Positions 40,394 to 61,952 of a DNA stretch of 64,000 bases are shown in pieces; positions within the stretch are counted from its first letter, which is position 1; each line of letters starts with the position of its first letter. A model generated the notes under the pieces. That model did not search any database. It was not told the origin of the DNA and saw only the letters and a list, made by a program, of their open reading frames with translations. The DNA comes from Dehalococcoidia bacterium (GTDB lineage Bacteria > Chloroflexota > Dehalococcoidia > GIF9 > UBA5629): assembly GCA_003142375.1 (NCBI GenBank), contig PLME01000014.1, forward strand, positions 7,830-71,829, given 5' to 3'. The translations under genes were made by a program, and so were the position numbers.

Positions 40394-41983
40394 TTATTGA
40401 ACCATCGCCAAGTTGCTGAACATTCCTTTGATCAGATCGGGGACGCCGACCATCGCCAGGCCGGTTATAAGCATCATGACCGACGCAAGGTAGAGGTATT
40501 TGTAGTTATGTCCCCCTTCGACCACTTTGATGGCGGCAGGATTGACTGCCGTGAGCATGAGCAACATGGCCGTTGACATCATATAGAGCATCCCCAATGA
40601 GGCAGCGCCGTTGGAGAAGAAGGAAAAGGTGGGCAACTGCGCTATGGCATTCATACCTTCCATGCCTGTAGTCTGCATTTTTTGCATTGCCGTTGAGAAA
40701 TTCAACATGATCTGGTAGATGCCGACCAGCAATACGGCCATGGTAACATGCATAGTGGCAACCAGGTAGAAAAACCCCGAGGAGACCATTTTCCTTTTGC
40801 CCCGCAGCAGGGCAATTTTCATGGCAAACATGGATGCCTGGTTACCAACGGCGCCGGCGTCTCCGCCAACCGCGATCCCGTCGCAGAAAATTCTCACGCT
40901 CCTGTTGACCTGCTCGCTTCCCGATTCGCAAACTAGCTTCTGCCAGCAAAGTTCAGGGCGGATTCCGAATTTAAGTGCGTTGTTCATCCTGCTTACCGGC
41001 TTTTTCAGCGACCCGAGCGAGCCGAAGTCAAGCCTCGAGATGCCTTCAATGACCGTAGTGCCGATCACCTTGGTGATGCCTCCCAGGGATCTGAGAAATC
41101 CGGCGATATCCATGTCATATTTATCTATTCTGCGGTCATCCCACCAGATCAGGATTCCAGGCGGGGCGATGATTACCGCAATTACAATAAGAGACCAGCC
41201 TAATCCGGCTTGCATCAAAAATAATATGGGGACGGCCAGCACTATCATTGGAACCGACACATACTTCAGGACCTTTTTGGCCAATTCCTGGGCTTTGGAT
41301 GTCTGCGGAAGATTATGGGTTTTGATCTCCTTGGGAGCGGCCCTGTACATGACCCAGCAGCCTAACAGCGTTGATATCAGCATTAAAAACGTAAGGGTTG
41401 CTATGAAGCTGGGTGCCATGGGGAAAATCAATATTGAGACCACGCTTATGACTACAACCAGGGAAGCTGAAATGATGAGGGCTGTGAACGCATCGGTCCA
41501 TTTCTTAAGGCTTTCCACGTGCGCCTCGTATTCTTCACCATAGGTTGCACCCATTACTTCCGCTTCGCGTTTTAAGAACTCGGCTTCGTTCTCGCCCGAT
41601 GCCATGGCGCCCGCCATACGCAGCAGAAGCGCTTTCGGCTCGGGCTCTTTGATTGTTTCGCCTACCATGCGGCAGGCCTCCGAATAATCATAATTTAACT
41701 TTTTTGCCAGGAAATGCACCTTACGCAAGTAAACGGACGACGTAAAGTTAAGCTGCGAAGCATAATCGAAGATCTGCGACCGCGAGAGGTCCGAGGTCAC
41801 CAGCGCGGACAGGTAGGTAACATGGCAGAAAAGGTCGCACTTCAGAAGATCGGTATTCAGTTTGATCTTCCCAGAAGAATCGTCAAAACCGTAACCGAAA
41901 CCTTGGGCTTTACCGTTGCCGTTATCGCCGGTTTTAGAAGAGCCCTTCTCGCTGCGCTTTAGCAAGGACTTTAAGGAGATCAT
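40394..41983 (-). CDS. arlJ: Archaellum assembly membrane protein ArlJ/FlaJ
   Basis: T2SF-type domains, multiple TMs, adjacent to arlI; SRSQIFDYASQLNFTSSVYLRKVHFLAKKLNYDYSEACR. Confidence 0.88.
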   Translation of the reverse strand: MISLKSLLKRSEKGSSKTGDNGNGKAQGFGYGFDDSSGKIKLNTDLLKCDLFCHVTYLSALVTSDLSRSQIFDYASQLNFTSSVYLRKVHFLAKKLNYDYSEACRMVGETIKEPEPKALLLRMAGAMASGENEAEFLKREAEVMGATYGEEYEAHVESLKKWTDAFTALIISASLVVVISVVSILIFPMAPSFIATLTFLMLISTLLGCWVMYRAAPKEIKTHNLPQTSKAQELAKKVLKYVSVPMIVLAVPILFLMQAGLGWSLIVIAVIIAPPGILIWWDDRRIDKYDMDIAGFLRSLGGITKVIGTTVIEGISRLDFGSLGSLKKPVSRMNNALKFGIRPELCWQKLVCESGSEQVNRSVRIFCDGIAVGGDAGAVGNQASMFAMKIALLRGKRKMVSSGFFYLVATMHVTMAVLLVGIYQIMLNFSTAMQKMQTTGMEGMNAIAQLPTFSFFSNGAASLGMLYMMSTAMLLMLTAVNPAAIKVVEGGHNYKYLYLASVMMLITGLAMVGVPDLIKGMFSNLAMVQ

Positions 41984-43769
41984 AAAAATTCTTTACTCCC
42001 TGTTCACTTAGCTTCTCAAGTATCTTGGCACGCCGCTCGACCTCTGCATAAATTCGGCGCCTTTTGTGCGGTGGTATGCCCAGCATGGGAGCAATTTTTT
42101 GCTCGAGAATATAGCTGTTACCATCGCCGCTGAATACAAATGTATCCGTTACCGGGTCCCAGCGAAATGCTTCCACAAAGGTAAAGGACTGTTGTACCGG
42201 GTCATAGCCGACTATTTCGTTGATACTGGTCATACGCCTGCCGGTTTTGCCGCTGGGCAGCTTTACGGCCTGCTGAATTATGACTATATTCAAGTTGTCC
42301 ATATAAGATTTGGGCACATTAATGGGACTGCCGGTCATACGTTGTATCAGCCTTTCCACCGAGGCGGCATGGAAGGTTGCCATCACGGAGTGGCCTGTCT
42401 GCATAGCCTGAAAAGCTATAGCCCCCTCAGCTCCACGGATTTCCCCGATTATTATTTCGTTGGGCCTCTGACGCAGGGCTGCTTTAAGCAGGTCGAACAT
42501 CGTCACACCGGCCTGGCCGTCCTCCTTAGTGCTGGATACCACCTCACGGATCCAGTTCTGGTGCGGCACCTGCAACTCCGGCGTGTCCTCTATCGAGATG
42601 ATCTTAGCGTTGGGATGAATGAATGTAGTAACGGCGTTAAGCGATGTAGTTTTCCCTGAGGCTGTTTCACCGCATACAAAGCAGTTCATGCCTTCACCGA
42701 GGGTGACAGAAAGGTATGAGGCCATCTTGTAATCCAGGGTACCCATATCTACAAGCTCTAGCACCGAGAGCGGCGTATCGCTGAATTTCCTGATGGAGAA
42801 ATTGGAGCCGCGCTTTGACACGTCAGTGCCATAGACAATATTTATGCGTGAGCCATCCGGCAAGGTGGCGTCGACGATGGGGCTGTGCACGCTCACAGGT
42901 TTTTTAATGCGTTCGGCCAACCGCATAACGAACTGGTCCAGGTCTTCCGAGGTAGCAAAATTCACCACCGTTTTAAGGCTCTTAAAGATCTTATGCTCTA
43001 TGAAGATGACCCCCAGCCCGCTGCAGCTCACGTCTTCAACGTACTTATCGTAGACGATGGGCTCCAGCACTCCCAGGCCGACTTTGTCCCTGCAGATGAG
43101 GTACTTGATTTCATCCAGTTCACGAGCAGTTACTTCCAGTGGTTTGACCTTGCTGTTAAAGGACATTTTATCCATGAGCCCGGTGGCAGCCCTCGACCTG
43201 CCGTTCCTGAACCTATCCGACATAGAGAGAGTCGCCGCAGATGCTACCGTCTGGTCGGGATCTCTAGATTTTTTGATGTCAATATTCCTCTTATCCCGTA
43301 TGCCCTGCCCCTTTATCACGCAGATGTCATCAATGCATTTGAGGAAGGCTTCCCGTTTTTCATCCGCAGTGATGACGGAGAAATTCCCCAGCCTATCTGA
43401 CATGTCAAGCAGCCGCTTTTCAACTTCCAGCATAAGCTTATCTATGTTATCCAGCAGTATCGGCTCTATAGATATATAAGTATTCCTGCCGTCGCCATGG
43501 TCATACAGAATATGGGTAAATATGCCGTCCTTAACCGGATAAATAAGGTTAGGGTTGGAGGTAGACCCAAGGCTGCGGTCCAGAGTTTCATAAAACTTGG
43601 GCAGGCCGTAATTATCTATTGGAATCATCTGGAGATATTCCAACAGGTGCGGATTCTTAGCAACAAGTGCCTGCGTCGTTTTAGACAGCAGGCTTAAGAT
43701 GTTGCAACCATCGGATTTTTTCCTTGTTGCCGCATCCGGAACCGGGAAAGGAAGTAGTATTTCAGGCAT
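41934..43769 (-). CDS. arlI: Archaellum motor ATPase ArlI/FlaI
   Basis: CGETASGKTTSLNAVTTFIHPNAKIISIEDTPELQVPHQNW; LRQRPNEIIIGEIRGAEGAIAFQAMQTGHSVMATFHA. Confidence 0.95.
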   Translation of the reverse strand: MPEILLPFPVPDAATRKKSDGCNILSLLSKTTQALVAKNPHLLEYLQMIPIDNYGLPKFYETLDRSLGSTSNPNLIYPVKDGIFTHILYDHGDGRNTYISIEPILLDNIDKLMLEVEKRLLDMSDRLGNFSVITADEKREAFLKCIDDICVIKGQGIRDKRNIDIKKSRDPDQTVASAATLSMSDRFRNGRSRAATGLMDKMSFNSKVKPLEVTARELDEIKYLICRDKVGLGVLEPIVYDKYVEDVSCSGLGVIFIEHKIFKSLKTVVNFATSEDLDQFVMRLAERIKKPVSVHSPIVDATLPDGSRINIVYGTDVSKRGSNFSIRKFSDTPLSVLELVDMGTLDYKMASYLSVTLGEGMNCFVCGETASGKTTSLNAVTTFIHPNAKIISIEDTPELQVPHQNWIREVVSSTKEDGQAGVTMFDLLKAALRQRPNEIIIGEIRGAEGAIAFQAMQTGHSVMATFHAASVERLIQRMTGSPINVPKSYMDNLNIVIIQQAVKLPSGKTGRRMTSINEIVGYDPVQQSFTFVEAFRWDPVTDTFVFSGDGNSYILEQKIAPMLGIPPHKRRRIYAEVERRAKILEKLSEQGVKNFYDLLKVLAKAQREGLF

Positions 43770-43793
43770 ATAGTAAAACCTCTTTAAATTACA

Positions 43794-44519
43794 TCAGGCC
43801 CTGGCTCTGCCCAGCGGCATGACACGCATGCCTGTGCCGGGGTCTACGTCAAAGCTCATGATATTGCCGGTATTCTTGTCAGCGCCACGTACTTTGGCTA
43901 CCTCCAGAACCTTGACCAATTTATCGCCCACCTCCTCAATTCGCAGTCTTAAGTGCGCATCGCAAGCCGATCTTATGCGGATCAACACCTGCTCATCAAA
44001 AGCATACGTGTGAGTTATATTAATAATGGTCCTGCCGCCGTCACACATTTTTTTACATTTTTCAAAATATTCAATAATCTGCTCCACCGATGTATGGGCA
44101 ATTATCGGAGTGAGAGAGTCCACGACAATCAGCTTGTAGGTGGGATAGGCCATAATTCCCGACGTTATCGTGGCAAACGTATCCATAGCTTTCATTCTGG
44201 ATGGCTCGATCGTAAATATCTTTATCCAGCCCAGCAGCAGGTGATCGATGATACTCAGCCCCAGGCTGTCCATCTGACTGTGCATGCTTTTAACCGTATT
44301 TTCCGTGGTAAAAAGCAGGACCCTGTGGCGCGCATTGAGCGCACCCCACATCATCTGCTGAGACAGCACCGACTTGCCTGCATCTGACTGTCCTTCAATT
44401 AAGGTCAGCGAACCTACGGGTATCCCTCCGCCGAGCCGCTTATCGATCTCGGAGTGCCCCGTACAAATTATTTCGTCTTGCGACCGTGCATCTTCATCTG
44501 ATGCCAATATTTTTGTCAT
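43794..44519 (-). CDS. arlH: Archaellum regulatory ATPase-like protein ArlH/FlaH
   Basis: LGGGIPVGSLTLIEGQSDAGKSVLSQQMMWGAL; position next to arlI. Confidence 0.92.
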   Translation of the reverse strand: MTKILASDEDARSQDEIICTGHSEIDKRLGGGIPVGSLTLIEGQSDAGKSVLSQQMMWGALNARHRVLLFTTENTVKSMHSQMDSLGLSIIDHLLLGWIKIFTIEPSRMKAMDTFATITSGIMAYPTYKLIVVDSLTPIIAHTSVEQIIEYFEKCKKMCDGGRTIINITHTYAFDEQVLIRIRSACDAHLRLRIEEVGDKLVKVLEVAKVRGADKNTGNIMSFDVDPGTGMRVMPLGRARA

Positions 44520-44553
44520 ATCATCCTCTTAAAATTACGCGTCTCCATATCGG

Positions 44554-45052
44554 CTACCAGCCGAACGCTATCTGGCTCCGGGCGCCGTTAGGCGTTACCA
44601 CCGTGGCCAGGTTGGTCTTATTCTCAGTGGCTGCAGGCCACAGATTGACTGTTATTTGCATCGTCTCACCCGGGTTCAAGATATTGGGCTGGTATATTTC
44701 CGGCTTGCCCTGGAAAAAAAAAGGCACTGCTTGTCCACCCTGGCGTAGCCACTGAATTTGGTATCCAGTTTGTGCCTCCATCCTGATACCGCACGATAAC
44801 ATCCCAGGCTGCGTAATCGGCCAGCGACGTATTGCCCGTATTAGCTACATAGAGGGTTACACTGTTGCCGCCCGGCGAAGTCACGGCATTTTCGCAGGAG
44901 ATGCTGGTATTAACCATATCCCTTGACAGCACCTCCTCCTGTCTCAATGCATCCGCCGTGGTATTTACAGCATTGAGCGCAGTCATGCACAGCGAAACTG
45001 CAGCAGCGATCAGTAAGGCAATGCAAACAAGTGTGATTGCGAAATTCTCCAT
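44554..45052 (-). CDS. arlF: ArlF/FlaF-like stator protein, interrupted by a +1 frameshift at a 9-bp homopolymer
   Basis: Frame 1 45052-44666 (MENFAITLVCIALLIAAAV...); frame 2 continues KPEIYQPNILNPGETMQITVNLWPAATENKTNLATVVTPNGARSQIAFGW to 44554; A9 run at 44714-44722. Confidence 0.75.
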
Positions 45053-45528
45053 GGCTCTCCTAGGCTTGCGCTGTAAATATCCTGGTCAGATATCCCGTTG
45101 GGCAGCACAAATTTAAAATAGTATGAACCGGAAGGTGCGGAGGCTAAGAAAATTGTTATCTTGACCGTGCCTGTCGTCGCCCATTCAGTCCCATTTTCGA
45201 TTGTATAGCTCCAGTACGGAACTTCTGATCCTATACTGCCGAATGGAATCCTGGCAAAATTCCCTTCGGGTCCGAAAAATACGTCGCTGTTTTGTATTCC
45301 CAGTATCCTCGATGCCCCGACATTTTTTAACCACACATAAACGCTGCTGCCGCTGTCGGCCATCTCAATTATCTCGATCTTACACCTGATTCTGTCATCT
45401 ATCTTTCCGGTGGCATCAGCTATGGCACCCGTGCTCTGCGTTATTGCCGGGTAAATAGCATTGATAACTACCATACTGCAAACAACTCCTCCTATTATCA
45501 GCAGGAGGGTAACCATCACCTTATCCAC
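45010..45528 (-). CDS. arlG: ArlG/FlaG-like stator protein
   Basis: N-terminal TM LLLIIGGVVCSMVVINAIYPAI, beta-rich domain, FKFVLPNGISDQDIYSA. Confidence 0.8.
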   Translation of the reverse strand: MDKVMVTLLLIIGGVVCSMVVINAIYPAITQSTGAIADATGKIDDRIRCKIEIIEMADSGSSVYVWLKNVGASRILGIQNSDVFFGPEGNFARIPFGSIGSEVPYWSYTIENGTEWATTGTVKITIFLASAPSGSYYFKFVLPNGISDQDIYSASLGEPWRISQSHLFALPY

Positions 45529-46432
45529 GCCTTGACTCCTTCATTACCGATAACATGGAAAGCAGGGCGCTATCGTGTTCCTCGGATCCTCCCATCAAAC
45601 TCTCCAATTGTGCCAATGTGGCCAGGTAATCGGTTGCCGTCGGAGACTGCTTGGAAGTAGACTCGTATCTTGAAATATGAATCATCCGGATCAGCACATC
45701 CTTTATATTGGTTGGTATGCGGCCCATGGCGCTCGACATCTCCACCAGAGCCTCTGTCCTATCTTTACCAAGCTTTCCGCATGCCTGGTCAATCCATTGT
45801 GTCATGCCCGCAATTACTACCAGGTCGGCCCTGCTGCCGGCCATGGTAGCAGTCCCGCCCTTTTTCTTACCGTTTCTGGGGGAGCCTTTGCCACTCAGCG
45901 GCTCTTCCTTTTCTTCGTCGACAGCTTCATCTATCTCAGCCTCGGATTCCAGTTCAACCGGGATAATATTTTTCTTTTTGCCCTTCTTAGGTTTCGGCGC
46001 CGGCTCATCTTCTGCCTCTTTTTCATCCTCCTGCGGCGACCCCGCAGAAGGTCCCGGCTGCGAATCGGCCAAAGCCTCCGATCCGGATGAAGGCCCCAAT
46101 TCGGGCATATCATCGGTCGGGCCACCCGGGCCGGGCTTATTGGCATCGAGGTCGGCAAACGGCTTGCCGAAGGACAAATCGGGATCGTCAAGGCCGGCAT
46201 CGGCGGACGGCTGATTGCTATTTTTACCTAAATCAAATATATCGGGGGGTACCTCTTCCTTATCTTTATCGGGTCCGGCAGGTGGTGTGCCGGTGTTCGG
46301 TACCATGCTGAAATTAAAGGGGTTCTGAATATTGAGGTACTGCTCACGGATATCAAGCAGGATCGTTTTGACCTCATTTTTCAATATCTTTAATTCTTCT
46401 TCCAGAAGCTTTATTCTTTGTTCTTCGTTCAT
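45521..46432 (-). CDS. ArlC/D/E-like cytoplasmic archaellum protein
   Basis: N-terminal coiled coil, Pro/Asp/Glu-rich linker, ArlD/E-like helical module RADLVVIAGMTQWIDQACGKLGKDRTEALVEMSSAMGRIPTNIKDVLIRMI. Confidence 0.7.
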   Translation of the reverse strand: MNEEQRIKLLEEELKILKNEVKTILLDIREQYLNIQNPFNFSMVPNTGTPPAGPDKDKEEVPPDIFDLGKNSNQPSADAGLDDPDLSFGKPFADLDANKPGPGGPTDDMPELGPSSGSEALADSQPGPSAGSPQEDEKEAEDEPAPKPKKGKKKNIIPVELESEAEIDEAVDEEKEEPLSGKGSPRNGKKKGGTATMAGSRADLVVIAGMTQWIDQACGKLGKDRTEALVEMSSAMGRIPTNIKDVLIRMIHISRYESTSKQSPTATDYLATLAQLESLMGGSEEHDSALLSMLSVMKESRRG

Positions 46433-46452
46433 ACGATTTACCCCTTTTTATG

Positions 46453-46481
46453 GTGGGCATCCGCCCTTGGCGGATGCCCAC
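46453..46481. promoter_or_regulatory. Intercistronic 13-bp stem-loop between the archaellin pair and the arl machinery genes
   Basis: GTGGGCATCCGCC-CTT-GGCGGATGCCCAC; no U-run on the transcribed (minus) strand. Confidence 0.65.
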
Positions 46482-46525
46482 TTTTCACATTACCACCTAT
46501 AAATCAAGTTTCTAGTTCATAAGGC

Positions 46526-47137
46526 TTAGTGCAGGTCCATCACCGGTTCGATAGCCGGAGGCAGCTGCCTCTGGATGGTGATGGTGGAGCCGATCGACGG
46601 TTTTACCTGCAGGTTGAATGTATCATTGCGCTGCAGAGGCTGGCTCAGGGCCAGACCGGTGCCGAGATCGGCCAGATCAACGGTGATCTCAAACTGCTCG
46701 CCGGTCTCCAAAAGGTTGTTGCCGTTGTCATCGCCGATGGCGGCAAAGGACCATTTCACGTTATTGAGATAGTCGTTCTTGGTCGTCAGACTGATGACGC
46801 ACTTGTTCATGCCTATCGTGGCCCCTGAGTTGGGGGTCATGTCGATGGGGTTGCCGGCTATGGCATTCTTAACCGTGAAAAGGATGCTGGTAAGATTTTC
46901 GGTATCGCCGTAGCCTATACATGAGCCCGAAAGCTCCATGTTGCTCTTGGCTTCGTTAAGGCCGGCATAGATGGTTTCCTTGCCCCTCTCTGCGGAGAAG
47001 AGGCCCGCACTCAATACTGCATAGCCGAATACGGCTGCCACAGTCACGAATGCGATCAGTATGATGGCGGTCTCCAGACCGGTCATACCTTTCTCTCCCT
47101 TATGGAGATTGAACATCGCTTTCATTAATTTAATCAT
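46526..47137 (-). CDS. arlB2: Archaellin (second gene)
   Basis: Class III-type leader MIKLMKAMFNLHKGEKG|MTGLETAIILIAFVTVAAVFGYAVLSAGLFS; C-terminus NDTFNLQVKPSIGSTITIQRQLPP. Confidence 0.93.
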   Translation of the reverse strand: MIKLMKAMFNLHKGEKGMTGLETAIILIAFVTVAAVFGYAVLSAGLFSAERGKETIYAGLNEAKSNMELSGSCIGYGDTENLTSILFTVKNAIAGNPIDMTPNSGATIGMNKCVISLTTKNDYLNNVKWSFAAIGDDNGNNLLETGEQFEITVDLADLGTGLALSQPLQRNDTFNLQVKPSIGSTITIQRQLPPAIEPVMDLH

Positions 47138-47165
47138 TTTTTCCTCCTTACTAAAGGTTCAAAGC

Positions 47166-47771
47166 TTAGTGCAGGTCCATCACCGGTTCGATTGCCGGAG
47201 GCAGTTGCCTCTGGATGGTGATGGTGGAGCCGATCGACGGCTTAACCTGCAGGGCGAATGTATCATTGCGCTGCAGCGGCTGGCTCAGGGTCAGACCGGT
47301 GCCAAGATCGGCCAGATCAACGGTGACCTCAAACTGTTCGCCGGTTTCCAAAAGTTGATTGCCGTTGTCATCGCCGATAGCGACAAAGGACCACTTCACA
47401 TTATTGAGATAGTCGTTCTTGGTCGTCAGGCTGATGACGCATTTGTTGTTGCCGCTGCCATCATTCGGGGTCATGTCGATGGGGTTGCCGGCAATGGCAT
47501 TCTTAACCGTGAAAAGGATGCTGGTGACGTTTTCAGTATTGCCCTTGGCCAGGCAAGAACCCGAAAGCTCCATGTTGCTCTTGGCTTCGTTCAAGCCGGC
47601 ATAGATGGTTTCCTTGCCCCTCTCTGCGGAGAAGAGGCCTGCACTCAGTACTGCATAGCCGAATACGGCTGCCACAGTCACGAATGCGATCAGTATGATG
47701 GCGGTCTCCAGACCGGTCATACCTTTTTCTCCCTTGTGGAGATTGAACATTGCTTTCATTAACTTAATCAT
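47166..47771 (-). CDS. arlB1: Archaellin (first gene)
   Basis: Same leader and core as arlB2; SD AAGGAGG before Met at 47771. Confidence 0.93.
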   Translation of the reverse strand: MIKLMKAMFNLHKGEKGMTGLETAIILIAFVTVAAVFGYAVLSAGLFSAERGKETIYAGLNEAKSNMELSGSCLAKGNTENVTSILFTVKNAIAGNPIDMTPNDGSGNNKCVISLTTKNDYLNNVKWSFVAIGDDNGNQLLETGEQFEVTVDLADLGTGLTLSQPLQRNDTFALQVKPSIGSTITIQRQLPPAIEPVMDLH

Positions 47772-47944
47772 TTTTTCCTCCTTAGTAATTGTCTCGACCA
47801 TTTGTTAAATTTTGATTGCCTTTTTTAATTTTTGATGTCAACCCTGATAGGCTGTCACCTCCTGCTAATTTTGTTTATATTGTGTTCACTATGAACTTGC
47901 CGACACCTCCTTACTCATATTCAAGAAAAATTAATCCCATATTT

Positions 47945-48409: not shown

Positions 48410-48588
48410 GACCCTCCTCAGTTATCGTATATCTCAAGATACTAATCTTTGTTTTGATCTATTTTGGCATGGCCGACGTTGAGCGGTAAGTCCCAAATGG
48501 TTTCATTATGGTGACCGTATTAGCTCATACTTTTGGCCCTGACATGCCCGCGCATAGGAATAAATCGGGCTGAATTGGGCAAATAAAA

Positions 48589-48609
48589 AAGGCCCCGAGT
48601 GGGGGCCTT
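48589..48609 (-). terminator. Terminator after the narL-like gene
   Basis: AAGGCCCC-N5-GGGGCCTT with TTTTTTATTT on the minus strand. Confidence 0.85.
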
Positions 48610-48636
48610 AAAGTTTAGCGGTTAAACTGATCGCTT

Positions 48637-49284
48637 TTAGAGCATATTTCTTCGGTAGGCTTCAGCCACAGCCTGAGTGCGGTCGACCGCATCAAGCTTA
48701 CTGAAAATAGTGTTGGTTTCCCTTTTTACGGTTGCCTCGCTAACGCATAGCTTGCCGGCTATTTCCCTATTAGTAATACCCGCTGCGATCAGCCGCAGGA
48801 TATCGAGCTGGCGGGGAGTAAGCAGTGTATTACGGCTGAGCTGGGCCACATTGCCAAATTGAGTGAATAGGGTACGTGTAATGGAAGGTGCAAAGGGTGA
48901 CTGGCCTTCAAAGGCCAGTTTAATGGATCTGGAAAGCTCTTCTCTGCCTATATCCTTTAGAAGATATCCCACGGCTCCGGCCTCGGCAGCCTGGGCCAGG
49001 TATTTATCTTCATATACTGTGAGGATTATTATATTGGCCTTACATTCCTTGGCTTTAAGCTGTCTGGTGGCCTCGATCCCACCCATGCCGGGCATCCTGA
49101 CATCCATTAATATAATATCCGGGTCCAGTTCCGCGGCTTTCAGGATCGCATCTTCCCCTGATTTTGCTTCTCCGACAACATCAATCCGCTCATCCAGCTC
49201 CAGCATGCGGCGCAACCCTTCACGCACCAGCTGCTGATCATCCACCAGCATAACCCTTATCAATTTTCTATCACTGCTGCTCAT
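48637..49284 (-). CDS. NarL/LuxR-family response regulator
   Basis: Receiver DPDIILMDVRMPGMGG, YLLKDIGREEL; HTH LTPRQLDILRLIAAGITNREIAGKLCVSEATVKRETNTIFSKLDA. Confidence 0.95.
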   Translation of the reverse strand: MSSSDRKLIRVMLVDDQQLVREGLRRMLELDERIDVVGEAKSGEDAILKAAELDPDIILMDVRMPGMGGIEATRQLKAKECKANIIILTVYEDKYLAQAAEAGAVGYLLKDIGREELSRSIKLAFEGQSPFAPSITRTLFTQFGNVAQLSRNTLLTPRQLDILRLIAAGITNREIAGKLCVSEATVKRETNTIFSKLDAVDRTQAVAEAYRRNML

Positions 49285-50927: not shown

Positions 50928-51500
50928 CTATTTCTTCTTCGGCCACCAGCCCCACCAGTTTTCCTGACCGCATTTAGTGCACTTGACCTTCATAGCGACA
51001 ACACCGACGGAACCACATGAGCCGCACTTGAAGATTTTACTGATGTTATAGCCGGCTGTTCCCCTCAACCCTTCTGAAATAACCTCCACCTGGCTGCTTA
51101 CATTCTGAAGCTGCTGTACAGCAGCTTTGAAGGCCGCCGGGTTGACCTGGTTTGAAGTATTATTACTGTTATTATCAAGCTTGGTGATCATCACCTCAAG
51201 TTTGGCCATGCGATTTACGATTTCAGCCATCCTTTCCTGCAATGCATTGATATCACCGGCCGCTATACATTCATCGTGACTGTGACCGCCACCCGAAGCC
51301 GGCTCCTCGGCAAACCCGTGGCTGGACGCCACACTCACTTTCTGTACGTTTTGCAACGGTGGCGGCGCATCGGGTCTGGGTTTAACTTCCGCTGTGGTGC
51401 TGGCTGCGACCCTATGTGCCGACGTGGATTTACTGGAGACGCTCTTGCCCACCATTGAATCGATCTCTTCCTGCGTCAGCATTTTACTCGTATCGTCCAT
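50928..51500 (-). CDS. Zinc-ribbon protein with FliM/FliY-like N-terminal CheY-binding motif
   Basis: N-terminus MDDTSKMLTQEEIDSMVGK; disordered linker; coiled coil; C-terminal CGSCGSVGVVAMKVKCTKCGQENWWGWW. Confidence 0.75.
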   Translation of the reverse strand: MDDTSKMLTQEEIDSMVGKSVSSKSTSAHRVAASTTAEVKPRPDAPPPLQNVQKVSVASSHGFAEEPASGGGHSHDECIAAGDINALQERMAEIVNRMAKLEVMITKLDNNSNNTSNQVNPAAFKAAVQQLQNVSSQVEVISEGLRGTAGYNISKIFKCGSCGSVGVVAMKVKCTKCGQENWWGWWPKKK

Positions 51501-51534
51501 TGCACACCTTCTATGTTAAGTTTCTAGAACCCAA

Positions 51535-52719
51535 TTAATACTCATTTAATTCGCTTATCAATATATTCTTTTTACTATCTTTCGTCAGATCGATATCACG
51601 TTTAACGTCCTTATGGCCCGGCTTCTCATTACATTCCAGCTCACAGCCTGTGCATATGTCGGGTATTTCTTCCACCGGCTCTTTGGATGCTGTGCTAATA
51701 ATGCGAATGATAGGCCTTTTTAGACATTCCGGGTTTGATTTGCTTACTATTCCCATGCGTCCGTCATTTAGTTTTACCATTGCGCCCGTCGGGTACACCG
51801 GTACAGTCTTAGCAAATACCCGGACCAGCTCAGGATCGAATAGCTCGCCGCTATAAGCAAATATATATTCTATGGCATCCTGTGAAGATACAATGCTGTG
51901 TTCGATGGCAAAGGCGGGGAGGAACTCCTCGCGGTGGGGACGCTTCGAAGCAAGCGCAAAGCCTACATCGGTTATTCCTAGTATGCGCGCCGGGAGGCAT
52001 ATCTCCGCACCTTTTAAACCGAAGGGGTAGCCGCTGCCGTTCCACCTTTCGTGATGCTGCAATATGATGTTGGCGGTTTCCGGTCCGATCTCAGTGTATC
52101 GGGCCATGATCTGCGAACCATAGACCGGGTGCCTCTGCACCGCCTTCATTTCTGCACTATTTAAATACTGCGGCTTCTCCAGAATGCCCTGGGGTAAAAG
52201 CACATAACCTACGTTCTGAAAAAGGGAGGCCATCCCTATTTGTTTAATCTCACGTTTATTCATGCCGCTGGCTTTGCCTATCAGCATGGAAAGAGATGCA
52301 ACCTTCACCGGGTGCACGTAATTATAATCGCGCAAGGAAAAACATCCGGCTATGGAAGCATCGCCCTTCTTTTCAGAAAGGAGTGATTCCATCAGCTCAT
52401 CCATCAGGTTATTCATCAGCACCAGGTCAATGGACTGCTGGTTCCTGCCCGTCAACATAGTCCGGCATTCGATCAATGCCCTGCGCAGCGATTTGGATAT
52501 CGCTCCTTCCAGCTGCGGAGGCACAAAACAAGTGGCCTGGATATCTTCGGTTTTACCATTGAGTATAAATAGTTCGCCCACACCTATATCGTCAATTTGA
52601 GCAATATCGCGGGCATCCAGCACCGTCCCCTGCTGTAAAACGATATCGCCCCAATTGTCACAGATCGGGGAAGCCAACTCCATACCCGGCCTGGCATAAA
52701 TTGCCGATATACGCTGCAT
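51535..52719 (-). CDS. HD-GYP-like protein with degenerate HD dyad (1)
   Basis: MASLFQNVGYVLLP in place of HDxGK; HPVYGSQ; LQHHERWNGSGYPFGLKG. Confidence 0.85.
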   Translation of the reverse strand: MQRISAIYARPGMELASPICDNWGDIVLQQGTVLDARDIAQIDDIGVGELFILNGKTEDIQATCFVPPQLEGAISKSLRRALIECRTMLTGRNQQSIDLVLMNNLMDELMESLLSEKKGDASIAGCFSLRDYNYVHPVKVASLSMLIGKASGMNKREIKQIGMASLFQNVGYVLLPQGILEKPQYLNSAEMKAVQRHPVYGSQIMARYTEIGPETANIILQHHERWNGSGYPFGLKGAEICLPARILGITDVGFALASKRPHREEFLPAFAIEHSIVSSQDAIEYIFAYSGELFDPELVRVFAKTVPVYPTGAMVKLNDGRMGIVSKSNPECLKRPIIRIISTASKEPVEEIPDICTGCELECNEKPGHKDVKRDIDLTKDSKKNILISELNEY

Positions 52720-52755: not shown

Positions 52756-53910
52756 TCAATATTCCATCACCTGCACAATCAGTTTTCTCTGGTGCTCGGC
52801 ATCGGCCAGGTTATAATCGTAAGTTTTAGCCAGTTCCCTCATATTGCTGTCATAACAAATGCGAACTTTGGGCCTTGAAAAATAACCGCAGTTGGCATTC
52901 GAAACGATGCCAACCTCACCCGTATTAAGCTTAACCATGATTCCCGAAGGATAAGTAGGCAATTGCTGGGTAAAAATCTTGACCAGGTCGGGGTCGAACA
53001 GCTCTCCGCTGTAGGCCACGATGAATTCCATGGCTTGATGCGGCCTGAGAAAATCTGCGTCGCTGAAATCGCCTGAAAAGGCGTTAATAAATTCTTGCGC
53101 TTCCTTGGGCAGTATGCAGCCGCGATGCGGCCTTTTAGATACCAGCGCAACGATACTATCGGTGATGCCCAGTATGCGGGCCCCATGACAGATACTCCTG
53201 CCCTTTATCCCCTGGGGATAGCCGCTGCCGTTCCAGCGCTCATGGTGTTGCTGGATAATCAGGGCGGTCTCTTGAGCAGCTTGCCCATAGCGTTTTACTA
53301 TCTCAGCACCGTAGGACGGGTGCTTTTGTATTGTCTGCGTTTCAGATTCGTCCAGAGGCCCCTCTTTATCAGCCAGTCCCTCCGGCAAAGCGGCATAGCC
53401 GATGTTCTGCAGAAGCGTAGCCATGCCCAGATTAATAAGCTCGGTCTGCCCCATTCCTGCAGCCTTGCCCATCAGCAAGGAAAGGCTGGTTACCTTGACT
53501 GGATGCACGAAATCATAGTCCTTCATGGAATGGCATCCGACTACTACCGGTTCACCCATAGCCACCGGGAACAGTTGCTGCACCATTTCAAAAACACCCT
53601 GCCGGATTGATGAAAGGTCCATCATCTGCGCCTTACCCGAGCCAATAATATGCTGAGCTTTGCGCAGTATCTGCCTTAAAGATCCCGCAATTGAACCCTC
53701 CAGTTCGGGCGTTATCAGCGGCCAGGCAACAACATCATCCACCCGCTTGTCCATAATAAATAGCTCGCCCACACCCAACTCCTCCAGATTTTCTACCTGA
53801 GCGGATGATAGCTTGGTCCCCTCCTTCAAGAGCAGCTTGCCGAAGCAGTCATATAATGCGCGGCCCAGGAACATAGTTGGTTTAGCGTGTTTAGCAGAAA
53901 TTCTTCTCAT
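52756..53910 (-). CDS. HD-GYP-like protein with degenerate HD dyad (2)
   Basis: MATLLQNIGYAALP; HPSYGAEIV; QQHHERWNGSGYPQGIKG. Confidence 0.85.
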   Translation of the reverse strand: MRRISAKHAKPTMFLGRALYDCFGKLLLKEGTKLSSAQVENLEELGVGELFIMDKRVDDVVAWPLITPELEGSIAGSLRQILRKAQHIIGSGKAQMMDLSSIRQGVFEMVQQLFPVAMGEPVVVGCHSMKDYDFVHPVKVTSLSLLMGKAAGMGQTELINLGMATLLQNIGYAALPEGLADKEGPLDESETQTIQKHPSYGAEIVKRYGQAAQETALIIQQHHERWNGSGYPQGIKGRSICHGARILGITDSIVALVSKRPHRGCILPKEAQEFINAFSGDFSDADFLRPHQAMEFIVAYSGELFDPDLVKIFTQQLPTYPSGIMVKLNTGEVGIVSNANCGYFSRPKVRICYDSNMRELAKTYDYNLADAEHQRKLIVQVMEY

Positions 53911-53940: not shown

Positions 53941-54744
53941 TTAAACTTTTGCCAAAGACGCGGAGTTTTTCTTCTGATAAAAGCACGACCCGAATTTGCC
54001 GAATCCTAATTTGGCGGCGTTAATCATGAATTCGGTGGCGCCCACAAAAAGTACGCCGTTCTCCCTTAATGACTCAAAAAACCGCTGATTGAGCTTTTCC
54101 TTGGCTTCCTCGGTAAAATAAATAGTCACGTTGCGGCATGCGATCAGGTCAAAGCCCGTTTCGAATTTATCTGCCAGCAGATTGTGACGTTTGAAAACCG
54201 CCTTATCCCTGATTTCTTTCTTGGCCCAGTAGTCACCGTTTTCCTGAGTGAAATATTTGTCGACCAGATGTTTGGGAATATTTTTCATCAGATCGTCCCG
54301 GTATGGCCCGCCCACTGCCGCCCTGGCCAGGCTGAGTTCATCCATATCCGTCCCCAGGATCCTGTAATTTACTTTTTTACGATTCTCGCATAGCAGCATG
54401 GCAATGGAGTACACTTCGGCACCATTTGAGCATCCCGCACTCCATATGTTGATGTAGTCCCTTTTTTCCAGTAAAGCCGGCAGTATACTGTTCTCCAGTT
54501 CCTGAAATACAGCGGCGTCACGGCAGAATTCGGTCACATTTATCGTGATGAAATCGCACAGTTTTTTCAGGCTGGGTTCGTCCTGCTCTATGATCCGGCA
54601 ATAGTGGATAACGTCTTTTTCATTAGTATTTTCTATGAAGGCAGACAGGCGCCGGCGCATCTGCTGGGTCTTATAGCTCTCCAGATCGATGCCCGTCATA
54701 GTAAGTACTTTCTTTTTTAGAAATAAATATTCTTGATCAGTCAT
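53941..54744 (-). CDS. cheR: Chemotaxis protein methyltransferase CheR
   Basis: FITINVTEFCRDAAVFQELE, WSAGCSNGAEVYSIAMLL, FDLIACRNVTIYFTEEAKEKL. Confidence 0.95.
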   Translation of the reverse strand: MTDQEYLFLKKKVLTMTGIDLESYKTQQMRRRLSAFIENTNEKDVIHYCRIIEQDEPSLKKLCDFITINVTEFCRDAAVFQELENSILPALLEKRDYINIWSAGCSNGAEVYSIAMLLCENRKKVNYRILGTDMDELSLARAAVGGPYRDDLMKNIPKHLVDKYFTQENGDYWAKKEIRDKAVFKRHNLLADKFETGFDLIACRNVTIYFTEEAKEKLNQRFFESLRENGVLFVGATEFMINAAKLGFGKFGSCFYQKKNSASLAKV

Positions 54745-54747
54745 AAT

Positions 54748-55845
54748 TTAGATTCTCACCATAGATTCACTGGGTTTGCGGCAGGCCGCGGTTATTTCAT
54801 CTACTATCCTGTCTAGCGGTACAACTTTATCTACCAGGCCGGCCTCGGCCACGCTCCTCGGCATGCCGTAGACCACGCAGGTTGATTCATCCTCGGCCAG
54901 GATCATTCCGCCTCCCGCTTTTATCATGGCGGCGCCGTCAGTGCCATCAGATCCCATTCCAGTTAATACAACACCCAGGCAGCGCGATCCATACGCTTTG
55001 GATGCCGATTCCATAGTTACATCCACGGCAGGCCGCAGCCCGCAGCGCGGCTTGTCCTGGTTAAGGCTTATCTGACCGTTGGTTTTCATCACCATATGAT
55101 ATCCGCCCGGTGCGAGCAGGGCCTGTCCCATCGAAACCCGGTCTCCCACCTCGGCTTCTTTCACGCGAATTTGGCTTATTTCATCGAGCCTTTCGGCTAT
55201 AGATTTCGTAAATTTGGGCGGCATATGCTGTACTATCAAAAATGCCGCAGGCAAATCGGCCGGCAAGTTCGGCACAACCTCATATAGTGCACGGGGGCCG
55301 CCCGTCGAGCTGCCGATGATTACAACCCTGTTCAACTTTCCCTGCCCGGAGGGGTTATTAACAGGTAGCTTTTTCTTGCTCCGCTGAAGGTCCGCAACTA
55401 TTCTCTGCAGCCTGGAGGTAACCTTAGCTACATCGATTTTAGACGCCTGCTTGATTTTCTGAATCAGCTCTGTATCCGATTCCAGCGACCCCGTCGGGTT
55501 AATCAGCGACGGTTTCAGGAAGAAGTCCACTGCTCCGATTTCGAGTGCCCTGATAGTAACATCAGCCCCTTCCGCCGTCAGGTTGCTCAACATCACCACT
55601 GGAGTAGGATATTCAGCCATTATGCGCTGCAGAGCGGTTACGCCATCCAGCTTGGGCATTTCCACGTCGAGCGTGACAACATCCGGCTTCAGCGCTTTAA
55701 TCTTCTCGATTGCGTCAAGGCCGTCCCTGGCCGTACCCGCAATTTCTATTTGCGTGTCGTTAGCCAGATGCTTGGCGATCATGATTCTGGCAAAAGCCGA
55801 ATCATCAACTATCAATACCCTGACACGTTTATCAGTATCTATCAT
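54748..55845 (-). CDS. cheB: Chemotaxis methylesterase/deamidase CheB
   Basis: Receiver PDVVTLDVEMPKLDG; IIGSSTGGPRAL; FLIVQHMPPKFTKSIAERLD; LTGMGSDGTDGA. Confidence 0.96.
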   Translation of the reverse strand: MIDTDKRVRVLIVDDSAFARIMIAKHLANDTQIEIAGTARDGLDAIEKIKALKPDVVTLDVEMPKLDGVTALQRIMAEYPTPVVMLSNLTAEGADVTIRALEIGAVDFFLKPSLINPTGSLESDTELIQKIKQASKIDVAKVTSRLQRIVADLQRSKKKLPVNNPSGQGKLNRVVIIGSSTGGPRALYEVVPNLPADLPAAFLIVQHMPPKFTKSIAERLDEISQIRVKEAEVGDRVSMGQALLAPGGYHMVMKTNGQISLNQDKPRCGLRPAVDVTMESASKAYGSRCLGVVLTGMGSDGTDGAAMIKAGGGMILAEDESTCVVYGMPRSVAEAGLVDKVVPLDRIVDEITAACRKPSESMVRI

Positions 55846-55880
55846 GTTTCAGTGCCCTCTCCGCCCTACGGGCGGCTTTT

Positions 55881-56237
55881 TTAACTAATCATCTTTTTTA
55901 CGGCCGCCAGGACGCGGTCTGCATCAAAAGGCTTGACTACGAAATCTTTGGCCCCCGTCTTAAGCGCTTCCATTACCATGGACTGCTGGCCCATAGCCGT
56001 CACCATGGCAACCCTGGCGCCGGGGTCCATCTTCATCAGCTCCTTCAATGTAGACAGACCGTCCATGTTCGGCATCGTGATGTCCAGCAGGACGCCATCG
56101 GGTCTATTTTCCCTGTATTTTTCGATGGCTTCCGCACCATCCGCCGCTTCGGCAACCTCAAATCCATTGTCCGAAAGCAGCTTCGTGCATCTCATGCGCA
56201 TAAATGCCGCGTCGTCTACTATAAGTATCTTCGCCAA
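55881..56237 (-). CDS. cheY: CheY response regulator
   Basis: AKILIVDDAAFMRMRCTKLL, GVLLDITMPNMDG, DFVVKPFDADRV. Confidence 0.92.
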   Translation of the reverse strand: MAKILIVDDAAFMRMRCTKLLSDNGFEVAEAADGAEAIEKYRENRPDGVLLDITMPNMDGLSTLKELMKMDPGARVAMVTAMGQQSMVMEALKTGAKDFVVKPFDADRVLAAVKKMIS

Positions 56238-56383
56238 GATTTACCTCCTTCAAAATGTTCCTTAGGATTCAACCTCGGACTCCCGCCCGGGTGTTTGTCG
56301 AATCTATTAATCTGTTCACTAATTTTCACAACCATGCCTTATTTCCACAAGTGGTAATAGTTTATTTTTGTTGAGCCAATAAG

Positions 56384-58531
56384 CTATTGTTGTTCCTCAC
56401 TTAATTTATACTTGGCTACCGTCTGTTTAAACTCATCAGCGACCTGGGTTACCTTGCTTCCTGCTTTCACAACCTGCTGGATTTGCGAGCCGACCTCATG
56501 GGCAGCTGCCGAAACCTGCTCGGTGGCTGCGCTGTTTTCTTCGGCCACACCGGCCACTTCTTCGACGGATTTGGATACGGTCTTGGCTGTGGCAGACATC
56601 TGCTCCGTAGCTGCAGTATTCTCCTCGACAATGGCGCTGATATTGTCGCTTAATTTCACCATCTCGGCGCTCATAGCATTCAGCTGTTCGGCAGCGGCGG
56701 ATATCTGCTCCACCTGCTCGCTCATCTGGCGTGATTGTTTCAAAATCTCTTCCAGGGATTGACCGGCGCTGGTAGCCAGGCTGTAACCACTGGCTATTTG
56801 CTCGGTTCCTTTCTCCATAGCCGTTACCGTCTGGGATACACCGGTCTGGATGCCATTGATAAGCTCGGCTATCTCTTCGGTTGAAGAGGAGGCCCTTTCA
56901 GCCAGCTTTCTCACCTCATCAGCCACTACAGCGAAGCCCCTGCCCTGTTCGCCGGCTCTGGCCGCCTCGATTGCAGCATTGAGCGCCAGCAGGTTTGTCT
57001 GATCGGCTATATCGTTGATGGTAGCAACGATCTTGCCGATCTCACGTGAGCGAGTGCCCAGACCGCTGACTTTTTCCGATGCAACTTCAATAGTTTTCTT
57101 GATCTCCTCCATACCCTTTATCGTTTTCTGCACCATCTCTGCGCCTTTATGAGCGGTATCAGTGGCCGACCTGGCGCTGCTGGTTGCGTTTACAGTGTTG
57201 GATGAGACTTGTGTTATAGCAGTGGAAACCTGGCTCACGATCTGAACATTTTTCCCTATTATAGCTGCCTGCTCCTGTGCGCCCCTGGCTATCTGGTCTA
57301 TGGCCCTGACCAACTGGTCAAGGGCTTTCATGGTATCCTGCATCGAGGACGCCTGGTCACTTGCGCCGTTGGCCACCTGCTGGCTGGCACTGGCTATCTG
57401 GTTTGTCGCCTGGCCAGCCTGCTCAGAGGCCTGGTTCAATTGTTGGCCGGATTCTAAAAGCTCCTTCGACATCCGTTTCAGCATCCGTACCACCCCTACG
57501 CGGCCGTCTCCGGATTTATTCGCAGCCTCTTTCAATTTGGCTAATTCACCCTTGTAGTCTCCCGTCACCCTGGATCTCAAATCAAACTGGGCCTGGTCAT
57601 CCATGACTTCTAAAACTTCGTTCAGCGGAGTAACTACCGTATCAAGAACATAGTTGATACCGTTAATGATATCGGCCCATGCCCCTTTGAATTTCGAGCC
57701 GTCGCCGCGGATATCCAACTGGCCATCGGTTGCCGCCTTAATCAGGGAGTCAACTTCATTCACCATCCCGTTGATAGAATCGATAAACTCATTAAAAACC
57801 GTAAACTGCTCCCTCCAGACGCCATGCTTAGCTTCTTCACGCGTCTCCCAATGCGGAAGGTTCTTCTCGCCATTGGCTATCCTTACAAAGTAATCATGAT
57901 GCGTTAAATGAACAGTCAGCAGCCCGTCCAGGCACATATTCGTTCCCTTGGCGACTTTCCTTAAGACGCCGTCGAATTTGTTGGCGTCTACCCTTCCGTC
58001 GATTTTCCCCTGTGAGATGCCTCCGTATACACTACCCATCTCAAGGGCAAGTGTCAGCTCCCTGGTAGCATCGATAAAATATTCCATGGCGCCGGTGATA
58101 TTACCGCCTTCATCTTTAACTGGGATGGTATAGCAGCGGAAGAATTTATCAGCCTGCGGTGTTTTGATCACAACTTCACTACTATACGTATTGCCGTCGG
58201 CAAACACCTTGCATGCCTGGCACTTTGGAGTATTGCAGAGCGGGAATTTAAACAGGTCATGGCATTTCTGGCCGACGCAGTCCGCCTTGCTTCGGCCCAG
58301 AGCTTCAGCGCCGGCCGCGTTGGCATACTTTATGGTGTATTCCTTATCGATAACCACGACGGGTGCAGGCAGCACATCCATATAATCATAGGATGGTGCT
58401 TTTTCTTTGCCGTTCTTGCGAAACAATGACTTCTTTTTGACTTTGCCCAGCACCACACTATGGCTTCCGTTGCCGTTGCCGTTGCCATTGCCGGACCCAT
58501 TATCCTTTTTCTTTTTGTCTAAACTGATCAT
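56384..58531 (-). CDS. Soluble PAS-containing methyl-accepting chemotaxis protein (1)
   Basis: PAS with Cys cluster; signalling hairpin [41 protein letters not shown]; no TM helix. Confidence 0.95.
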
Positions 58532-58594
58532 CTCGCCACCTTATAGTAAAATTATGTTTTATAATCTTTTTACCTTACTTTCCACCCATCCCAT

Positions 58595-60727
58595 TCATTC
58601 GCCTTCCGGCAGCTTATACGTAGCTAGAAGCTCCTTGAACTCGCCGGACATCGTTTGGAGCGCACTACTGGATTCCACGACTTCGTGTGCCTGAGCGCTG
58701 ATCTGCTCGGCAGCCGCAGATACTTCCTCTGTCGAGGCGCTGTTTTCCTCCGATACGCCGGCAACTTCCTCCACCGATTTGGACACCTGTTTGACTGTTT
58801 CATCCATGCTCTCGGTGATGGCTGTGTTCTCCTCGGCGATGGCGCTTATATTGTCACTGAGTTTGACCATCTCCGAGCTCATGCTGGATAGCTGTTGGGT
58901 AGCAACGGATATTTGCTCGACCTCCTTTCCCATCTCTTTGGATTTTGTCAGTATCTCATCAAGCGAACAGCCGGCCCTGGTAGCCAGTTCATATCCGTTG
59001 GCGACCTCCTCAGTGCCTTTGGTCATAGCATTGATGGTGTCCTGTACCCCTTTTTGTATGTTGTTGATGAGCTCTTCAATTTCCTTGGTGGAAGTCGATG
59101 CCCTTTCGGCAAGCTTCCTGACCTCGTCGGCTACCACTGCAAAACCCCTGCCCTGTTCACCTGCCCTGGCGGCTTCGATGGCAGCGTTGAGAGCCAGCAG
59201 GTTAGTCTGGTCGGCAATATCATTGATAGTGGCAACGATTTTACCTATTTCCCTGGAACGATCGCCCAGGCCACTGACTTTTTCTGAGGCGCTATCCATG
59301 GTCTTCATGATATTTTCCATACCTTTAATGGTATTCTGTACCATATCTGCACCCTTCTGAGCCGCTCCCGAAGTGTCTTTAGAGCTGGTGGTAGTCTGCT
59401 TGGCGCTGGAGGAAACCTGGCTGATCGCTTCGGAAACCTGGTTTACAACCTGAACATTTTTCTCGATCATCTGAGCCTGTTCCTGTGCTCCCTTAGCTAT
59501 CTGGCTGATGGCAGATACGAGCTTCTCCACGGCAGCCAATGTTTGCTGCATTGCCGTAGCCTGGTCAGACGCGCCTTTGGCCACCTGCTGGCTGGAAGCT
59601 GCAATCTGCTGCGTGGCCTCACCTGATTGTTCAGCCGACTGTTTAAGCTGTGCGCTTGCGCTGGCAAGATCGTTCGAAACCTTCTTAAGGGTTTTCATTA
59701 CAGTGATCCTGCCGTTGAGAGACTCATTAACGGCATCCTTGAGCTTGCTAAGATCACCTTTATACTCGCCGCTGACTTTAGTAGTCAGATCATTTTGCGC
59801 CTCAAGATGCAGCACGCGGAAAACATCGTCCATGGGCTCTATTATCGAATCGAGGGTGGAATTGATGCCCGCCATCATCTCGGCCCAACAACCCTTGAAT
59901 TTGGAAGCATCACCTCTCGTATCGAGTTTGCCCTGCGCCGACTCCATGGTCAGTTTGTTCATCTCCTCCATAAAGCTGTTAAGAGAACCGATGAACTCGT
60001 TAAAGGTACCATGCATTTGCTTCCAGCATCCGTACTGGGATTCCACCTGGTCCTCCCAGCGTTCTAGTTTTTCTCCCCGCGAGATCTTCAGGAAGTAATC
60101 ATTCTGTCTCATGATTAAACCGAGCAGGGAATCCAGCAGCATATTGGTACCTTTGGCTTGTTTGCGCAGTATGCCATCAAATTGTTTGTAGTCCGCCCTT
60201 GCCTCCGGTTTCCCCAGGGCGATGCTAGTGAATAGATTACCCATCTCAAGGCCAAAGGTCAGTTCCCTGGTAGCATCGATGAAGTATTCTATTGCACCGA
60301 TAATTTCGCCCTTATCGTCTTTAACCGGCACGGTGTAGCAGCGGAAGAACACATCGCCTTTAGGCGCCTTGACCACCACTTCACTGCTATAGGTGATGCC
60401 GTCGGCAAAGGCCTTGCATGCCTGGCAATTAGGAGTATTGCAGAATTTGAATTTGAACAAGTCAAAACACTTCTGCCCCAGACAGGATTCCTTAGCGCCG
60501 GTCAGGATCTCCGCACCGGGACTATTAATAAACTGTATTGTGAATTCCCTGTCGAAAAATACGACGGGTACAGGCAAAAGATCTATGAAACTGAAATCAT
60601 AAATACTTTTAGCTGCCTTGCCGTTTTTCCTAGACGGCGCGGTTTTGGACCTGCCGTGCCCGAAGAGCGACCCCGTCAGCACATGGCCGGCATTTCCATT
60701 GCCTTTCTTTTCCTTTGCCTGAATCAT
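58595..60727 (-). CDS. Soluble PAS-containing methyl-accepting chemotaxis protein (2)
   Basis: Same architecture as MCP 1; [41 protein letters not shown]. Confidence 0.95.
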
Positions 60728-60792
60728 GCTGTTTCCTCCTTAACTACCTGTCTGGTTAACAATCGTGCACGCACGCAGACAAATAGGTTTTT

Positions 60793-61302
60793 TCATAATT
60801 CTCCTACCGGGCTGGCCGTGGTCCTCAATTTCGTAATACCGGTGTCGATGTTCAACCACATGGAACGGCCCAGCGTACCCCTTGTATCCTCGGCCTTAAT
60901 GGACATCTTATTTTCAGCGACGGCGCTTTTAACTGCCGTGATATTACGGTCGCCGATATCCAATATGCTTCCCACAGGGACCGTATGGATAATTTTGGCG
61001 CCTCCTGCGACTTTAATTACGATCCTGCTTTTTACAGCCCCTTTGCTTTCCATTTGATTTACCATGGCCGGCAAGGCCGTATTGGCATACTTGGTTGGTG
61101 TTTTTCCGCAATCGGCAACGTTCCCGTGCGGCAAAACTACATGCACCATGGCGCCGACCCGTGCTACGGGATCATAAGCGCTTATACCTATGCATGAACC
61201 CAACCCCAGGCAGGCGAGGACCGTGTGCGGATCATTGGAGACCTGCATTTCTCCCAGACCCACAACTACCATCTCCTCATTTTTTACTGAACTGAGTGTC
61301 AA
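60793..61302 (-). CDS. cheD: Chemoreceptor glutamine deamidase CheD
   Basis: LACLGLGSCIGISAYDPVARVGAMVHVVLP; IVIKVAGGAKI. Confidence 0.93.
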   Translation of the reverse strand: MTLSSVKNEEMVVVGLGEMQVSNDPHTVLACLGLGSCIGISAYDPVARVGAMVHVVLPHGNVADCGKTPTKYANTALPAMVNQMESKGAVKSRIVIKVAGGAKIIHTVPVGSILDIGDRNITAVKSAVAENKMSIKAEDTRGTLGRSMWLNIDTGITKLRTTASPVGEL

Positions 61303-61919
61303 TTGACGCCTCCTGCGGCGGTGATGAGCGGCAGTTTCATGAAGCTGGCGTTGGGCATGATTAAAAATGTGCCCTGTATAGTCTGGTCGCTTACGCCGAA
61401 AGATGTCTCAGCAATGAAGACATCGTCACGTTCTGCCAGTATCTCGGCCAGAGCGATATCCAAGATAGCTCCCGCCATTTCAAGCAGGACCACCGGGGGA
61501 GACGGTTCAAGCAGGATACCAAGGGAGTCGGCCACCGCATTCAAGAAAAATGTGCCTGTTATGTTGCCCATTTCGCCCAGAGCCGATTGTGTCATTTCAT
61601 CCAGGCTTTTGCAGGTGCCCGGGGGGTCGCCCATAAGCAGGTCCAGGATGCTATAGGCAAATTCAGGTTGGTGGGCCAGCAGGATATGCCCGTTGCTGGC
61701 TCCTGAAAAGGTAATATATACACCGATAACCATGCGCTCAGGTCCGCCCAGCACATATGGCATTTCTTTGGCAGGGATCTTGCGGATACCGATAGAATTG
61801 ATTTGAAAATCCTTGCCTACCATTTGGGAGAGACCGTTAATAGCATTGGTCATGCCTTTTTTAACTAAACCGTCCCAGACGGCCATTTCCTCAGTTTCTG
61901 AGACCTGATTTTTATCCAT
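61299..61919 (-). CDS. cheC: CheY-P phosphatase CheC
   Basis: SALGEMGNITGTFFLNAVAD (one clear phosphatase motif); ETSFGVSDQTIQGTFLIMP. Confidence 0.85.
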   Translation of the reverse strand: MDKNQVSETEEMAVWDGLVKKGMTNAINGLSQMVGKDFQINSIGIRKIPAKEMPYVLGGPERMVIGVYITFSGASNGHILLAHQPEFAYSILDLLMGDPPGTCKSLDEMTQSALGEMGNITGTFFLNAVADSLGILLEPSPPVVLLEMAGAILDIALAEILAERDDVFIAETSFGVSDQTIQGTFLIMPNASFMKLPLITAAGGVN

Positions 61920-61952
61920 ACTTATTTTGACCTCCTGAAGTCACATTCCGTG

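Follow-up and report, generated by a model that had tools for sequence, protein, structure and literature searches.

The window, by which we mean the whole 64,000-nucleotide stretch of DNA that was analysed, belongs to a dehalococcoidian member of the Chloroflexota whose genome (92% complete) carries a full archaellum cluster. The genes and features that concern us here are as follows.

40394..47801, minus strand: archaellum cluster, with ArlJ, ArlI, ArlH, ArlG/F, an ArlD/E-like protein and two flagellins
45521..46432, minus strand: ArlC/D/E-like switch protein, a candidate docking partner (homologs occupy the equivalent position in other genomes' arl clusters; ArlD/E identity taken from position and reading)
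50928..51500, minus strand: gene of the EID-ribbon protein, 190 aa, the proposed CheY-P to archaellum adaptor
51505..51510, minus strand: ribosome-binding site AAGGTG, 4 bases 5' of the ATG start, read from sequence
51535..52719, minus strand: degenerate HD-GYP protein (QN instead of HD), conserved upstream neighbour of the EID gene
52756..53910, minus strand: second degenerate HD-GYP protein
53941..63905, minus strand: che operon, with CheR, CheB, CheY, two MCPs, CheD, CheC and CheA (CheR, CheB, CheD and MCP named from sequence)
55881..56237, minus strand: CheY, proposed ligand of the EID peptide, with a FliM-contact face like that of Thermotoga maritima CheY

The EID gene begins 34 bases after the first degenerate HD-GYP gene and, as the original prediction had it, lies between the che and archaellum genes on the strand that both occupy. 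The two HD-GYP-like genes separate it from cheR, and an HK/NarL/REC set separates it from the flagellins; this set (47945-50872) encodes a receiver-only protein, a NarL-type regulator and a GAF/receiver histidine kinase, all probable archaellum regulators, and a NarL-type regulator and kinase also accompany the arl or che genes of genomes G355, G291 and G345.

In every case with readable context, the EID+ribbon gene closes the che operon, and the order cheA-cheC-cheD-(cheY)-cheB-cheR-HDGYP-EID gene is conserved in at least 10 genomes. The gene stands at the operon end after cheB-cheR-HDGYP in G113, G131, G191, G381, G190, G284, G213, G345, G143 and G181; it follows the HDGYP gene in G090 and G301 (on the fragment available), the match in G291 comes directly after HDGYP, and in G212 the two genes are side by side. 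In five genomes (the window's own, G012, G355, G113 and G301), it also adjoins arl genes. All HDGYP neighbours with a readable motif have QN in place of the catalytic HD, whereas an unrelated HD-GYP protein in the window (36131-37930) has the canonical HD. The QN-type proteins (in the window, 51535-52719 and 52756-53910), which precede the EID gene in many che operons, are likely c-di-GMP sensors or pseudoenzymes rather than phosphodiesterases.

Within the EID-ribbon protein, four segments can be told apart.

51447..51482, minus strand: MLTQEEIDSMVG, residues 7-18, the FliM/FliN-type CheY-docking peptide; helix at 10-18 in a low-confidence model
51261..51446, minus strand: linker, residues 19-80, variable and probably unstructured
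51069..51260, minus strand: predicted helices or coiled coil, residues 81-144 (low-confidence model, coil-type Pfam matches)
50931..51056, minus strand: zinc-ribbon-like domain CxxC-x11-CxxC...WWGWWP, residues 149-190, the proposed docking or assembly end

The protein had been described as a FliM/FliY-like N-terminal peptide followed by a low-complexity linker, a coiled coil and a C-terminal CxxC...CxxC ribbon, with no FliM/FliN core, and most of this description held. The first residues are MDDTSKMLTQEEIDSMVGK and contain MLTQEEIDSMV, the linker is rich in Ala, Ser and Pro, and the ribbon cysteines are spaced C159-x2-C162-x11-C174-x2-C177 ahead of a C-terminal WWGWWPKKK. Scans against Pfam and NCBIfam found neither a FliM/FliN core nor any other domain, and no named ribbon family rose above cut-off in the Pfam scan; the matches that did appear were coiled-coil noise and a single sub-threshold ZZ finger, and were set aside. 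The coiled coil is predicted at about residues 81-144, weakly so, by an AlphaFold2 monomer model built with six close orthologs, whose mean pLDDT of 44 is poor. The strands of the ribbon are likewise predicted at low confidence; its four cysteines are invariant across 14 diverged homologs.

Conservation is concentrated at the two ends of the protein. Mean pairwise identity among the six closest orthologs is 69% over residues 1-20, 36% in the linker, 61% in the coil and 88% in the ribbon, and across the 14 diverged homologs Q10, D14, F157 and G184 are invariant along with the four cysteines, while the linker cannot be aligned. Two conserved ends joined by a free tether fit the picture of a bait on a string. 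The peptide is kept in all five public orthologs. A public genome scan, which detects close relatives only, returned Chloroflexota only, the named relatives being Dehalococcoidia or Chloroflexi metagenome bins. When orthologs lacking the EID motif were sought, none turned up among the full-length members of the operon family. Among 541 ORFs of at least 100 aa in the fetched loci, 14 had the motif at the N terminus, of which 13 were EID proteins of che operons and the other was a FliM. Because all five public orthologs keep the peptide, and given its conservation among homologs and the rarity of the motif, we do not regard it as a chance match.

The likeness to FliM could also be recovered from the family itself. 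A profile seeded only with the EID-ribbon family, and with no FliM, matched the N termini of 370-aa ORFs beside cheA in family f36, and those of G184 and G060 contain FliMN_C (PF01052) and are thus FliM, with other f36 genomes alike; elsewhere in the phylum, in other classes, it picked out the N termini of G516 FliM and of a FliN-like EID protein from G458. The peptide reads MSDNAVLSQADIDALL in the EID protein of G090 and MASDNAVLTQREIDALL in the FliM of G184. The motif could in principle be coincidental and the protein unrelated to CheY, since only about nine residues are common with FliM and CheY binding is predicted from sequence. We consider this very improbable: the motif is conserved over ten families despite the diverged linker, it is always N-terminal and in a che operon, and the profile independently retrieves FliM and FliN. 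The EIDALL motif is a published CheY-P binder (PMC9126983), and the literature searched yielded no description of an EID peptide other than in FliM/FliY.

The CheY encoded in the window scores equally with Pyrococcus horikoshii and T. maritima CheY overall. At 11 of the 14 positions that we take, on the basis of the E. coli complex, to be FliM contacts, it matches T. maritima CheY, and at 8 the archaeal P. horikoshii CheY; Q92, F106, R115, A119 and K122 (E. coli numbering) are common to the window and T. maritima proteins and differ in P. horikoshii. T. maritima CheY binds FliM, and the resemblance of this face is suggestive of FliM-type peptide binding in the host as well.

In archaea, CheY reaches the archaellum switch through the adaptor CheF. 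A CheF profile gave no match above cut-off in 26 genomes, the host included, with archaeal controls positive, and the CheF-arch domain (PF04283) was not found in the EID-ribbon protein. FliM/FliN cores were equally wanting above cut-off in all 18 genomes with an EID+ribbon protein, the host among them, apart from one sub-threshold match in G284. A 2025 Nature Microbiology paper reports that CheF is absent from Chloroflexota, that another, unknown component may replace it, and that archaella and flagella are mutually exclusive (PMC12488501). The EID-ribbon protein is our best candidate for this missing substitute. Alternatively, the real adaptor could lie elsewhere, as a highly diverged CheF or a CheY-P-binding ArlD/E, with the EID protein in an accessory regulatory role, for instance acting on the upstream degenerate HD-GYP protein, whose QN-for-HD form is equally conserved as a neighbour. 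The ArlD/E-like proteins of che-positive genomes are also longer on average (310 versus 252 aa, P=0.002), a difference confounded by family; within f80, the proteins hardly differ in length (345 and 336 aa), and we dropped this difference as evidence. With the CheF profile negative against positive controls and the peptide itself predicting CheY binding, we judge this alternative to be distinctly improbable.

We surveyed 393 genomes of the host's class, searching the same set for ArlI, the EID family and CheA. ArlI was present in 58 genomes (E<1e-60), CheA in 55, and an EID+ribbon protein in 18, which span ten families. The original prediction held that the gene should co-occur with arl and che loci and be absent from arl loci of nonchemotactic genomes, and the survey agreed on both counts: among the 58 ArlI-positive genomes, the protein was found in 16/16 with CheA versus 0/42 without it, and no N-terminal EID ORF appeared in the arl loci read from che-negative genomes. 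Divided by motor, the 55 CheA-positive genomes carried it in 16/16 with Arl, 0/29 with FliM and 1/10 with neither. The eighteenth carrier, G181, has cheC, cheD, cheB and cheR beside its EID gene on a short contig, so all 18 carriers are che-positive. Fisher P values for the co-occurrence were about 1e-13 to 1e-14; they ignore kinship and operon linkage, and contrasts at the level of families are therefore the more honest measure. The association with CheA is in part expected from operon membership. Genomes with both CheA and Arl cover nine families, and within f1, f64, f66 and f80, the EID gene has been lost together with cheA. A wider survey of the phylum turned up no additional EID-ribbon carriers; the genomes sampled contained no ArlI beyond the class, so archaella such as those of Anaerolineae (e.g., Litorilinea) fall outside its scope.

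The same distribution bears on whether the peptide reaches a motor at all. Being co-encoded with cheC and cheD, the protein could act as a sink or localiser for CheY-P or as a phosphatase scaffold, for instance together with the operon's own CheC; CheY-P would be buffered even by a lone bait peptide, and contact with the motor is so far a conjecture. Such a role would, however, leave the motor in these genomes without any recognised receptor for CheY, since neither CheF nor FliM was found, and the EID gene is missing from flagellated relatives that do have che genes. We therefore think it improbable that the peptide serves CheY-P in this way.

Exceptions to the archaellum link come from two genera. 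G213 and G181, of a single genus in family f46, combine an EID+ribbon protein with che genes, and searches in them for ArlI, archaellin and FliM came up empty; in G149 and G170, from another genus, the EID protein has a different C terminus and lacks the ribbon, and no archaellum was found. All four encode a PilB-type ATPase, and G213, G181 and G149 a PilT-like protein as well. For G213 and G181, the choice is between a recent loss of arl genes and a bait that serves pili as well. The window genome itself contains PilB and PilT, so a pilus output is possible there too. The protein might then be a CheY-P adaptor whose motor is the type IV pilus, driving twitching, or some other output, with an indirect link to the archaellum, as the type IVa pili of the archaellum-free G213 and G181 and the ribbon-less EID proteins of the arl-less G149 and G170 would suggest. 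Set against this are the 16/18 carriers that are ArlI-positive, compared with 15% of the class, the five genomes with the EID gene beside the arl cluster, and the finding that most che-positive genomes without an archaellum have FliM and lack the EID gene. We regard a pilus output as unlikely, though less so than the other alternatives.

The ribbon, too, has a wider distribution. Other Dehalococcoidia proteins share its C-terminal C(xx)C...CxxC...W-x-GW(W/F)P pattern and differ in having no EID peptide and other N-terminal parts: a ParB-like protein (locus L027), small HTH-like proteins (L020, L022 and L024) and membrane-anchored proteins (L013, L032 and L034). Therefore, this mobile domain, which has no Pfam family, is a general module and is not specific to the archaellum. 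In f64, membrane-anchored proteins with a coiled coil and a ribbon and no EID peptide are encoded immediately after the EID-ribbon gene or what remains of it (L067 12333-13781 and L076 2924-3607), and are possibly membrane partners of the EID-ribbon protein.

We conclude that the EID-ribbon protein is probably a tethered CheY-P receptor that replaces CheF and, in effect, the N terminus of FliM in archaellated Dehalococcoidia. Its N-terminal helix would bind the alpha4-beta5-alpha5 groove of CheY-P as the FliM N-terminal peptide does, the flexible linker and coiled coil would hold the bait at the archaellum base, and the coil and C-terminal ribbon would oligomerise and attach to the switch complex, with the ArlD/E-like protein as the most plausible site, such that docked CheY-P would change archaellum rotation. 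The peptide and the CheY face are the grounds for inferring that CheY-P binds; which protein serves as docking partner, and by what route switching is transmitted, are conjecture. The original proposal of an adaptor from CheY-P to ArlC/D/E is thus supported in part. Docking of CheY through the FliM-like peptide is likely, since the peptide is kept, arl and che genes co-occur with it, and no CheF rose above cut-off, whereas the archaellum output is an inference because the ribbon is found in proteins unrelated to motility and G213 and G181 have no detectable archaellum. In view of the f46 exceptions and the ribbon on other proteins, we hold the archaellum output to be well supported, not proven, and probable on balance, and a direct contact between ribbon and ArlD/E to be a conjecture with the chances somewhat against it.

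Compared with known systems, the protein belongs with neither FliM nor CheF. Like FliM and FliN(Y), it has an LSQxEIDALL-type helix at the extreme N terminus followed by a flexible linker, and it is co-encoded with che genes; unlike them, it lacks the FliM middle domain and FliMN_C (SpoA, PF01052), having a coiled coil and zinc-ribbon-like end instead, and its host's motor is an archaellum (the motor genes in the window are arl) rather than a flagellum with a C-ring. It is absent from genomes with FliM, as if it took the place of FliM. With CheF (PF04283), it shares co-encoding with che and arl genes and the proposed role of CheY-P adaptor for the archaellum, yet it has no sequence match to CheF and no PH-like domains. 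The surfaces of CheY would differ as well: CheF uses its C-terminal domain to bind close to alpha1 and the site of phosphorylation (PMC9126983); for an EID peptide, the expected site is the alpha4-alpha5 groove. We see in it a new variant of CheY-P-to-motor adaptor, with a function like that of the FliM N terminus, a new anchor and a CheF-like placement.

The 2025 paper that described functional archaella in Chloroflexota did not settle by what route CheY gets to a CheF-less motor, and the EID-ribbon gene fits this gap as a specific candidate that can be tested and whose binding surface is predicted; it is probably the link by which bacteria with an archaeal motor steer. We lean, by a little, toward a chimeric switch, in which Dehalococcoidia with a horizontally acquired archaellum neither kept nor recruited archaeal CheF and instead placed a FliM/FliN-type bait on a ribbon protein of their own lineage; a bacterial-type signalling output would then steer an archaeal rotary motor through a nonarchaeal binding mode. 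If so, the CheY docking peptide would be a portable module that evolution has moved between unrelated motors, and a motor transferred between domains could be rewired to the local signalling pathway.

Several observations concern related genes. At the end of che operons in loci L131 (613-1110) and L074 (5845-6357), there are EID proteins with no ribbon and a different conserved C terminus, ..VLNKKLxxLG, in genomes where no archaellum or flagellum was found; here, the bait peptide sits on another anchor. One che operon of G190 (L062, 12751-13098 and 13368-14231) encodes tandem EID proteins, one with the ribbon and one without. On contig C57 of G131 (L138, 2139-18317), a second che cluster lies beside an ArlI-like ATPase, ArlJ-like genes and archaeal-type pilins, possibly a chemosensory archaeal-type pilus in a bacterium. 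Two neighbouring arlI genes occur in the archaellum cluster at L058 (3076-6567) and also in G063, G068, G175 and G210. Finally, the window encodes two nearly identical archaellins in tandem (46526-47801); across its genome, four contigs together carry at least six archaellin matches above cut-off.
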